DNA of 32,741 bases from Bacillota bacterium (lineage in GTDB: Bacteria > Bacillota > Limnochordia > DTU080): contig DULU01000027.1 in the NCBI GenBank assembly GCA_012840225.1, positions 1-32,741 on the forward strand, given 5' to 3'. The translations under genes and the position numbers were made by a program. The notes beneath the pieces were generated by a model. That model worked only from the letters and a program-made list of their open reading frames with translations. It made no database searches and had not been told where the DNA came from. This document shows, piece after piece, positions 25,131-28,209 of this stretch (position 1 is the stretch's first letter; each line of letters starts with the position of its first letter).

Positions 25131-25706
25131 TTATTGCACCTGATACATGCCGTGGGTAATCATGTAATTGGCAATGCCCTCGCCATGCTGCTGCTCTTCC
25201 TGCTGAATATGCTGCAGTGCCTGACGAATCTGCGGTTTTACAGTTTCGAATATAGCCGTGTTATAGGCGCTGGCGATATATTTTTCCGTAGTGAGAGCAT
25301 CGGCGCATAAACTGGCATCATTCTGGTTGACCATACCGCCAAGTGCCTGCTGGCTCGTCTGCCACTGCAACTGATTACCACCTGCCCCAATCGCCTGCCG
25401 GCCGGCCTGCTGCTGGGTCATCTGGGACATTTGTCCGCCCGGCTGTGACAGCTGCTGCCCTCCTTGGGACATTTGTCCACTTTGCTGCTGGCTACCACCG
25501 CCTGCACCTGTGTTCGGCACCTGTCCCTGAAGCAACTGATTCACCGTGTTATAGTGCTGCTGCTCATTAGATTGATACTGTGAGAACAACTGCTTCAGCT
25601 GGGGATCTTTTACCTGCTGGGCATAATTCCCATATTTCTGAATACAAAGCTCTTCATGACGTAGCATATCCTTCAGGAGCATGCTTTCTTTCTGGGTTAA
25701 CTGCAT
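25131..25706 (-). CDS. CotF-like spore coat protein with Gln-rich linker
   Basis: A 191-residue protein with two ferritin-like helical segments typical of the coat F domain: an N-terminal part (ESMLLKDMLRHEELCIQKYG; SQYQSNEQQHYNTVNQLLQG) and a C-terminal part (DASLCADALTTEKYIASAYN; QALQHIQQEEQQHGEGIANY). Between them lies a low-complexity linker of about 65 residues rich in Gln, Gly, Ser and Met (residues 64-130). The ATG at 25706 follows GAGGAGG by 8 bases. CotF-type proteins sit in the endospore coat, so this supports a spore-forming host. The gene is alone on its transcript and ends at a bidirectional terminator. Confidence 0.88.
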   Translation of the reverse strand: MQLTQKESMLLKDMLRHEELCIQKYGNYAQQVKDPQLKQLFSQYQSNEQQHYNTVNQLLQGQVPNTGAGGGSQQQSGQMSQGGQQLSQPGGQMSQMTQQQAGRQAIGAGGNQLQWQTSQQALGGMVNQNDASLCADALTTEKYIASAYNTAIFETVKPQIRQALQHIQQEEQQHGEGIANYMITHGMYQVQ

Positions 25707-25835
25707 TTTTTCTACCTCCTCAGACTTAAGCATGCTCCCGCCATATCCGGATTATGCAATTCTTAGACATAGGTCCGTCCAAGCCCCGGGGCTGGTATTT
25801 AATTCATAAGCGGCAAATTATGTATTACCACTCCG

Positions 25836-28028
25836 CTATTTGATAAACACAATTTCAATGCGCCGGTTCTTGGCCATGTTTTCCGGGCTGGTGTTGGGGA
25901 CCAGGCCAAGGAAATCGAAGCTTTCATGGATGGCCGAAGGAAATGCCCGGCTGAAGTGCCGGCGCACGAAGGCATCGGTATTGGTGCCGCCCACATAATA
26001 GACCCGGCATACCGAATCCGGATCGACGCCGGACGCCATGATTTCCGCTCGCAGCCTTTCCACCACCGGCTTAAGGATGGGAGCAGCTACCTGTTCATCA
26101 TAAAGGTCGTGGCGCAGGCGGATACCTGCCAGCCGCGCTTTGGTGGGAAAGGGTACTATTTCACCCGCCGCTTCTTCACCGGGAGCTTTGTTCAGGAAAA
26201 TGCTTTCGTTGAACACAAAGTGTTCTTTCATCTGGCGGCAGGTATAGAGAAACTCCCGGTCCGGCTCGTTTTTGTCCACCTCCTTCAATAAATTATTCGG
26301 CACCAAATGCAAGGCGTCGACGCTTTCCAGCACTCTGTCGGCAGCAGTCTCCAACTGGAAAGCCAGACCGGCATCGAGGATGTTGCCACCCACCTGCGCA
26401 TCAAAACCGGAGAGGTAGTTTTTGTAGCGTTCCTGGATCTTGAGCAAGGTTTCATCCGGCACGAGAGCCGCCGAATAGCTGCCCAATATGCGCAGGGATA
26501 CCTCTCCGTGCAGCGTCTGCACTTCGGCAATCACCACGTCGGTGGTGCCGCCGCCGCTGTCCACCACAGCCACCCGGCTTCCGGCCGGCAGGTTCAGCAG
26601 CTCATCCTTCCGTCTTTTTTCGATACCAGTCAGAGCCGCTTGCGGCTCGGGGATAAAAGCGATGGCCTCTTCCGGCACCCGGCATTGCTTCAGGGCTTCG
26701 CGCAGCAGCTGTTCATAAGCCCGCACCTGTTTCTCCTCCCGGCCGTCGTCCAGCACCGGCCGGCTGAGAATATAGCGGACCTTCAAGTGCTCCCGGGACA
26801 ACGGACGTGCCGGATCGGCTTTCTGGAAGTAATCGTCAAGGCGCTGAAATATGCGCTGAAAATATTTAGCCAATAGCTCCTTGTTCGACGTTCCGGGGAT
26901 GGACGAGGTCACCAGGCTTTTGTTGTTGCGCAGATAGGTCTTTAAATTATCCACCACCACCTGATTCGGCGGCACGAGATTTTGCTTGCAAAGCATGGCC
27001 GCGCGCTGCCCCCAGGCCACCACCGAACCGTGCTCATCTATCAGCATCAAGGTGGGAAAGCGGGGCGTATTATCCACATCTCCCACAATGTCGATCGTCC
27101 CGGCCGGTTTGCTCTCCACAAGCCGCCGGCGCCATCTGACCCGCACCCCGGTGTTCTGAGTACCAAAGTCGATGGCCACCACCACATCCGGTCCCATAGT
27201 CGGCTGAGGTGACGACATCCTCAGCACGGGCACGCACACTTCATCCGGACCGGCATTCCACATAGGCTCGCCGCCACTGCCGGAGTCGAGGCGAAAGGTC
27301 AGTTCGGCAAAGCCGTTTGCCGCCACAGGCACCGGCTGCCGTCCCCTGCCCAGAGGCAAACCAAAGTGCATCACACTATAACCCGCTGGAACGTCGGAAG
27401 AGAAAATGCGCTGCTTGTCAGCGTCGTTCCAAATGCGCACATATTGCTTCCTCACCCCGGGAGGAAACAATACGGTCGGACTGCCGATAATCCAACGCTC
27501 CCTGTGGCTTAAAAGCCTAATATATTCCGCTACATAAAATGCTTGCTCGTTCCACCCGCTCTTTTCCCACCAGCGTTCCCGGTCCCGGACGGCATCATGG
27601 CTGCGGACGACGATGCTGCCGCCGATCAGCTGATCGGCGCGATGCTCGATTTCATATATCACATAAGCTCCGGGTGCAGCTTTGCGCTGATCTACCCCTA
27701 ATAGCTTTAGCCCGCGGGCTCTCGTCAGGTCAACAGAGACATTCACTGCTGCGGTGCCACGGTTGTGAGCCAGGAGGTAGAACCGGCCTCCGGGCGGTAA
27801 AACAATTTCCTCCCGGCAAGGCCGGCGGGTGGCGGAAACATACCAATCAATTATGGAAGCGGGGCGCCCACAATAGGCACAATAACGATCGCCTTCCTGA
27901 AATGGTTCACACTCTGCTCCACACTGCGATGTACAGCATATTGGTGCGCTGCGCTCGATACTCTGCACTTCTATATCCAATTCGCATTCACCGTAATAAT
28001 TAGTGATGGTATATATGACGTAAGTCAT
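25836..28028 (-). CDS. zinc-ribbon/Hsp70-like ATPase fusion
   Basis: A 730-residue protein with an unusual order. Residues 31-54 form a Cys-rich zinc ribbon (Cys 36 and 40, then CAYCG at 50-54). Residues 60-275 look like one or two beta-sandwich domains. An Hsp70/actin-type ATPase follows with all three nucleotide motifs: phosphate 1 VVAIDFGTQNTGVRVRW near 282, phosphate 2 VAVVDSGGGTTDVVIAEV near 487, and adenosine VYYVGGTNTDAF near 677. The chain ends soon after the ATPase, so the DnaK substrate-binding domain and lid are missing. No J-protein or GrpE gene is nearby. It is divergent from zupT and has its own promoter. Function unknown; it may recognise a partner through the zinc ribbon or beta domains. 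Confidence 0.82.
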   Translation of the reverse strand: MTYVIYTITNYYGECELDIEVQSIERSAPICCTSQCGAECEPFQEGDRYCAYCGRPASIIDWYVSATRRPCREEIVLPPGGRFYLLAHNRGTAAVNVSVDLTRARGLKLLGVDQRKAAPGAYVIYEIEHRADQLIGGSIVVRSHDAVRDRERWWEKSGWNEQAFYVAEYIRLLSHRERWIIGSPTVLFPPGVRKQYVRIWNDADKQRIFSSDVPAGYSVMHFGLPLGRGRQPVPVAANGFAELTFRLDSGSGGEPMWNAGPDEVCVPVLRMSSPQPTMGPDVVVAIDFGTQNTGVRVRWRRRLVESKPAGTIDIVGDVDNTPRFPTLMLIDEHGSVVAWGQRAAMLCKQNLVPPNQVVVDNLKTYLRNNKSLVTSSIPGTSNKELLAKYFQRIFQRLDDYFQKADPARPLSREHLKVRYILSRPVLDDGREEKQVRAYEQLLREALKQCRVPEEAIAFIPEPQAALTGIEKRRKDELLNLPAGSRVAVVDSGGGTTDVVIAEVQTLHGEVSLRILGSYSAALVPDETLLKIQERYKNYLSGFDAQVGGNILDAGLAFQLETAADRVLESVDALHLVPNNLLKEVDKNEPDREFLYTCRQMKEHFVFNESIFLNKAPGEEAAGEIVPFPTKARLAGIRLRHDLYDEQVAAPILKPVVERLRAEIMASGVDPDSVCRVYYVGGTNTDAFVRRHFSRAFPSAIHESFDFLGLVPNTSPENMAKNRRIEIVFIK

Positions 28029-28056
28029 AATTTACCTTTCTTGCCGCTAGTTCCTG

Positions 28057-28096
28057 CTGCCTTGAAATAATCAGGCATTAAGGCAGAAAAACTCAA
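28057..28096 (-). promoter_or_regulatory. promoter and inverted repeat for the Hsp70-like gene
   Basis: On the minus strand TTGAGT (28096-28091) and GATTAT (28072-28067) form a -35/-10 pair with an 18-base spacer. The inverted repeat CTGCCTT (28057-28063) / AAGGCAG (28080-28086) spans the -10 and may be an operator. Confidence 0.45.
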
Positions 28097-28161
28097 CCTT
28101 GTCATATTCAGTAATAGCGCCCCCCGCTAGTACCTCCCAGCTAGCAGCCACCAGACCAGAG

Positions 28162-28209
28162 GTGACCAAACCGGCGGTCACTGGACTAGATGCAACCCTG
28201 CCTGGTTGC
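28162..28209. repeat. two inverted repeats upstream of zupT
   Basis: GTGACC (28162-28167) / GGTCAC (28176-28181) and GCAACC (28192-28197) / GGTTGC (28204-28209) are perfect short inverted repeats within 50 bases. They lie 44-91 bases upstream of the zupT start. They may be binding sites for a metal-responsive regulator or part of a structured leader; they do not match a Zur box I know. Confidence 0.4.

Follow-up and report, generated by a model that had tools for sequence, protein, structure and literature searches.

The gene and its product

The window, that is, the whole stretch of 32,741 nucleotides that was analysed, carries on its minus strand an uninterrupted open reading frame (25836–28028) with an ATG start and a product of 730 residues. 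A GAAAGG sequence upstream of it (28035–28040, minus strand) is a likely ribosome-binding site. All features described below lie on the same strand. The profile built for the family introduced in the next section matches the product with E=3.7e-284, over profile positions 3–695 of 815, identifying it as a truncated member of a zinc-ribbon/Hsp70 family. An N-terminal extension that is longer than in most relatives (residues 1–30; 27939–28028) precedes a zinc ribbon of the form C36-x3-C40 ... C50-x2-C53 (27870–27923). Next come a first, β-sandwich-like domain (approximately residues 60–165; 27534–27851) and a second β-rich domain (approximately residues 170–278; 27195–27521), both with approximate boundaries and both placed from the strands predicted for a homologue, L044, with lower confidence for the second. 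The four cysteines of the window protein are kept across the family; in a 16-row alignment C16, C30 and C33 (L044 numbering) are invariant and C20 is nearly so. Relatives match zinc-ribbon models, below the cut-off.

The remainder of the conserved region is an Hsp70-type nucleotide-binding domain (NBD; residues 279–697; 25938–27194), assigned from alignments and from profile comparison with DnaK. This domain of the window protein is 47% identical to L044 and L085, and its last helix is absent. It contains the phosphate-1 motif VVVAIDFGTQNT (residues 282–293; 27150–27185), with the core AIDFGTQNT, and the segment NLKTYLR (residues 361–367; 26928–26948), whose LKT lysine occupies the position of the Hsp70 catalytic lysine and is invariant in the 16-row alignment (K340 in L044 numbering). 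These are followed by an EP motif, the phosphate-2 motif VVDSGGGTTDVV (residues 488–499; 26532–26567), with the core DSGGGTTD, and the adenosine motif VYYVGGTNTD (residues 676–685; 25974–26003), which includes VGGTNTD. The catalytic Lys, Glu, Asp and Thr of Hsp70 proteins are present together with all three nucleotide motifs. Comparison of the family profile with DnaK by hhalign aligned 389 columns with E=3e-24.

Profile libraries give little hint of this. On the window protein, Pfam and NCBIfam returned only sub-threshold matches of the actin/Hsp70 type (SrfB, FtsA, EutJ and YegD), the Pfam scan gave no match to PF00012, and PADLOC gave no match. Membership of the SrfB family, as a full-length PF07520 protein, was rejected at a score of 12 bits (cut-off 27.1), as was membership of the YegD and EutJ families, for which the matches fell far below the cut-offs. 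The sequence-only reading of this locus had recognised intact Hsp70 nucleotide motifs, where libraries alone remained sub-threshold, and had placed a zinc ribbon and β domains before the ATPase; both observations are borne out. The zinc ribbon and β domains ahead of an Hsp70 ATPase are a conserved architecture, unnamed in the profile libraries searched.

Relatives in the Armatimonadota

Searches with the single protein found no family match in 101 relatives, 73 genomes of the class and 398 genomes of the phylum, nor in phages, plasmids, viral contigs or genome contigs. The family was found with a degenerate motif probe, an alignment with synthetic rows that conserved only the ATP motifs, which was tried on viral contigs and then on genome contigs, and which recovered loci L044–L048, L050 and L051 from the latter; two earlier probe designs had returned ordinary DnaK or nothing. 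The orphan appearance of the window protein thus reflects the sensitivity limit of single-sequence searching. L044 was the best match to the probe (45% over the entire ATPase, E=3e-111), and as whole proteins L044 and the window product share 42% identity over 674 residues (E=1e-166), with the same order of domains.

The records for L045–L048 name Chthonomonas, Chthonomonadaceae or Armatimonadetes. That for L044 is labelled Actinomycetota, but the genome collection assigns its genome to the phylum that also holds the Chthonomonas records, and it is probably a mislabelled metagenome bin. Almost all members of the family are in the Armatimonadota. With the family profile and a threshold of E≤1e-12, matches occur in 27 of 291 genomes of the Armatimonadota. 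Within the 398 genomes sampled from the host phylum, only two besides that of the window match, both over the ATPase only and at about 1e-11 to 1e-12, these counts being samples of one phylum and of the host phylum. The host genome itself contains only the window copy. No description of exactly this family was found in the literature searched, the coverage of which was incomplete.

The missing C-terminal domain

In a 21-row alignment, all 20 homologues possess a helix with the motif AVxxGA, which closes the lobe of the Hsp70 ATPase, and, beyond it, a further C-terminal domain; only the window copy is without them. From this helix to the end of the chain there are 109–150 residues in the homologues and eight in the window row. 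The counterpart of the motif in DnaK is NPDEAVAIGAA, in the last helix of the NBD. The NBD includes this helix in all 20 relatives and lacks it in the window protein, whose homology to the family stops near residue 697.

The C-terminal β domain of the homologues comprises some 80–140 residues. An AlphaFold model of L044, calculated from the alignment of the family and with a mean pLDDT of 74 (85–95 in most ATPase blocks), has eight strands after the ATPase, located where DnaK has its substrate-binding β domain. In Foldseek this model finds DnaK and BiP, both full-length, as its best PDB matches, aligned over 600 columns, and the hhalign comparison of the family with DnaK stays collinear past the closing helix as far as the first strands of the substrate domain. 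Taken alone, the C-terminal domain gave no convincing sequence match to the DnaK substrate domain (E=0.2). The intact relatives have no SBD-α lid. For the window protein, a single-sequence AlphaFold prediction (pLDDT 35) was uninformative. The modelling and profile comparisons suggest that the family carries a lidless substrate-binding β domain after the ATPase, which the window copy would have lost.

Since all 20 homologues have the C-terminal domain and the window copy alone lacks it, the absence is a lineage-specific truncation, a loss in one copy and not a new design. The earlier reading, of a chain that ends where the peptide-binding domain should begin, was right as to the absent domain but not as to the exact end, which comes earlier and takes the last NBD helix with it. 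The reversed architecture without a substrate domain that it proposed does not hold for the family: the survey of genomes recovered the order of front module and ATPase in the relatives, but not the form that lacks the substrate domain.

A MotB-like tail

Family homology gives way to a junction region (residues 698–705; 25914–25937), consistent with the end of the profile match at position 695 of 815. The last 25 residues, FLGLVPNTSPENMAKNRRIEIVFIK (residues 706–730; 25839–25913), match the C-terminus of the flagellar protein MotB, at positions 221–245 of 259. A profile of seven MotB sequences scores 21.7 bits, compared with 9.7 bits for the best of 3000 shuffles of the protein; the single-test E value of 4e-9 is optimistic, as the MotB sequences in the profile were themselves selected by similarity. 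In the phylum search the tail matches open reading frames of 240–290 residues in about 30 genomes, and in a pairwise comparison with one MotB 15 of 16 residues are identical (LVPNTSPENMA-NRR). The NCBIfam OmpA-type matches to the tail reach only 0.03–0.09 for the library. The window protein has only the last segment of MotB, without the peptidoglycan-binding core or transmembrane helix.

The host genome has a single OmpA-family protein, which is its MotB. This was rejected as the source of the tail, as it fits much worse than the MotB proteins of other genomes.

Gene neighbourhood of the relatives

In the relatives, the Hsp gene heads a cluster that encodes a GrpE-like protein (best match to PF01025 1.4e-5), a double-zinc-ribbon protein, a transmembrane vWA-like protein, so labelled from a DxSxS motif that visual inspection showed in a single member and without Pfam support, and a Tubulin_2 protein. 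The conserved Armatimonadota cluster is seen at L046:9158–18500, L083:2785–16093, L085:2522–13494 and L096:3–9536, sometimes with MotA/MotB-like genes following. Twelve loci have a homologue of Tubulin_2 (PF13809, best E=3e-57) close by the Hsp gene, most of the other loci ending at contig ends, with none in the stretches covered for L086 and L088. At L095:2139–5330, a Tubulin_2 protein has a sub-threshold rubredoxin-like match at its extreme C-terminus (PF21349, 1.5e-4). A scan for the Walker A pattern found no convincing P-loop GTPase near the clusters.

As regards Zorya, whose definition calls for ZorA and ZorB plus effector genes, MotA/ZorA-like and MotB/ZorB-like genes stand beside some distant relatives, and none is present in the window. 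At L097:4903–7556 such a pair adjoins a distant Hsp relative, with matches to ZorB models down to 7e-13. The tail could have arisen if the cluster had collapsed onto a MotB-like gene at its own end, an attractive idea in view of the MotA/MotB-like genes near the distant loci L083, L089, L091 and L097, but the close relatives with long contigs (L046 and L085) have no such genes.

The window encodes none of the cluster partners, and the genome of its organism gave no match to Tubulin_2. Solitary location need not mean that a gene is dead, however, since L086:6482–9217 is a full-length relative whose 7 kb or so of downstream sequence shows no recognisable partners; intact solitary copies may thus exist.

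Origin of the window copy

We consider it likely that the window gene is an old import, truncated and without partners, of an otherwise Armatimonadota family of zinc-ribbon/β/Hsp70 proteins, and that its tail comes from the 3′ end of a motB gene. In the tree it falls inside a seven-row clade with L044–L047, L085 and L086 (support 100/99). It is flanked by a ZIP gene on one side and a Coat_F gene on the other, whose closest relatives come from the family and class of the host, and its GC3 of 0.65 is like that of its neighbours, with no jump at the junction. The host-class flanks and host-like GC3 point to an old import resident in the host chromosome; a contaminant contig was rejected on the evidence of the flanks. 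Horizontal transfer would have been followed by loss of the rest of the cluster, and a deletion or recombination event would have cut away the final helix of the ATPase together with the C-terminal domain, fusing the reading frame in phase to the 3′ end of motB.

To judge from its motifs, the shortened protein may still bind nucleotide, but the allosteric cycle of Hsp70 would not be expected of it. We regard it as probably a relic or, at the most, a subunit consisting of an ATPase and front module, with its function probably lost or reduced. Against its being a relic, some 690 conserved codons remain open and GC3 is host-like, implying that the gene has been maintained or was truncated only recently.

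A functional new architecture, in which an ATP-driven switch recognises its target through the zinc ribbon and β domains and the MotB tail is neutral or adaptive, appears unlikely. The nucleotide motifs, zinc-ribbon cysteines and open frame are all kept, the host-like codon composition suggests long residence, and HSP70 proteins without the peptide-binding domain have been reported as second genes of some conflict systems. No second truncated form occurs, however, among the 101 relatives, 73 class genomes and 398 phylum genomes, the closing helix of the ATPase lobe is missing as well, there are no linked partners, and the end branch of the window gene measures 0.87, compared with 0.21–0.49 in the nearest rows. 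The N-terminally aimed switch of the sequence-only reading was argued from a truncated copy; it might hold for the intact family.

It is quite improbable that the junction arose in assembly, as a chimeric contig joining an intact hsp gene to the motB 3′ end of another organism. The assembly is fragmented (154 contigs, with 4.28% contamination), so that the junction could be such a chimera, and the tail is closer to the MotB proteins of other genomes than to that of its own. Both flanks belong to the host family and class, however, and a chimera would thus demand an in-frame join between two similar genomes, as well as a junction across which GC3 shows no jump. Finally, for all that only 25 residues are matched, with an optimistic E value and marginal library matches, it is very improbable that the likeness to MotB is accidental and the C-terminus simply a diverged family end, since the tail and MotB share their C-terminal ends, the match running to the last residue of the protein with near identity to one MotB and far above the shuffles, while the family's own C-terminus is unrecognisable in the window protein.

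Comparison with known systems

Like Hsp70/DnaK (PF00012), the window protein has the ATPase fold and the nucleotide motifs, in an alignment that is collinear at the level of the family profile, and the intact relatives carry a β domain in the place of the substrate-binding β domain. The window copy differs in having a zinc ribbon and two β domains in front, and neither closing helix nor C-terminal domain.

Conflict systems centred on a GAP1-N2 DO-GTPase have been described by Kaur et al. 2020 (PMC7159879). Tubulins belong to one of their themes and HSP70/GrpE to a separate one, which includes an HSP70 'sans its peptide-binding domain'. To that extent a comparable Hsp70 is already on record, which tells in part against the undescribed activity first suggested for this locus, although a description of the exact family was not found. 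The Armatimonadota clusters resemble these systems in having tubulin, or HSP70 and GrpE, with vWA and zinc-ribbon proteins. They differ in that Hsp70, GrpE-like and tubulin proteins occur together, in that some have MotA/MotB-like genes, and in that the Walker A scan revealed no convincing P-loop protein that could stand for the DO-GTPase. With the two themes brought together and no GTPase recognised, they have the look of a new variant. The window gene, in contrast to the GAP1-N2 systems, has no partner at all. A second precedent is the CoCoNuT/McrB-linked Hsp70 (PMC11090510), where Hsp70-like units, zinc ribbons and Ig-like β-sandwiches meet in one defence system. There the Hsp70 unit is fused to the McrB GTPase or to McrC-type proteins, whereas our relatives have no convincing P-loop protein nearby and no McrBC neighbour was noticed.

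The intact proteins have, in this order, a zinc ribbon, two β domains, an Hsp70 ATPase and a C-terminal β domain. Such a protein would act as a lidless Hsp70, with an ATP cycle that the GrpE-like factor encoded alongside could reset. It would bind or remodel partner proteins, of which tubulin-family polymers or the membrane vWA-like protein seem the best candidates, and its front part, zinc ribbon and β domains, might dock it to the complex. We tentatively suggest that the intact family may lie at the centre of an Armatimonadota machine not yet described. Its lidless zinc-ribbon Hsp70, with a GrpE-like exchange factor of its own, would control how a tubulin-family polymer assembles at the membrane, where the transmembrane vWA-like protein and, in certain lineages, a channel of the MotA/MotB type would also take part. 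A conflict or stress response would be the probable setting, and the window gene would be a stray across the phylum boundary. A role in conflict or defence is proposed by analogy with the systems above.

What looked like a new Hsp70 design is accounted for by truncation, a caution against inferring function from a single broken copy. The intact family is the more interesting object. For its members the prediction is that the Hsp70 has a dedicated exchange factor and a tubulin-like protein as its gene neighbour, a linkage that unites two themes reported separately in bacterial conflict systems; from them it might be learned how an ATPase of the chaperone type controls a tubulin polymer in bacteria.

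Finally, two features adjoin the gene in the window. The Coat_F/ferritin-like protein encoded at 25131–25733 is interrupted by a Gln/Gly-rich stretch, its host-class relatives matching only the two ends, and the intergenic region between the hsp and ZIP transporter genes (28060–28190) contains short imperfect repeats rich in CTAG and ACC/GGT.
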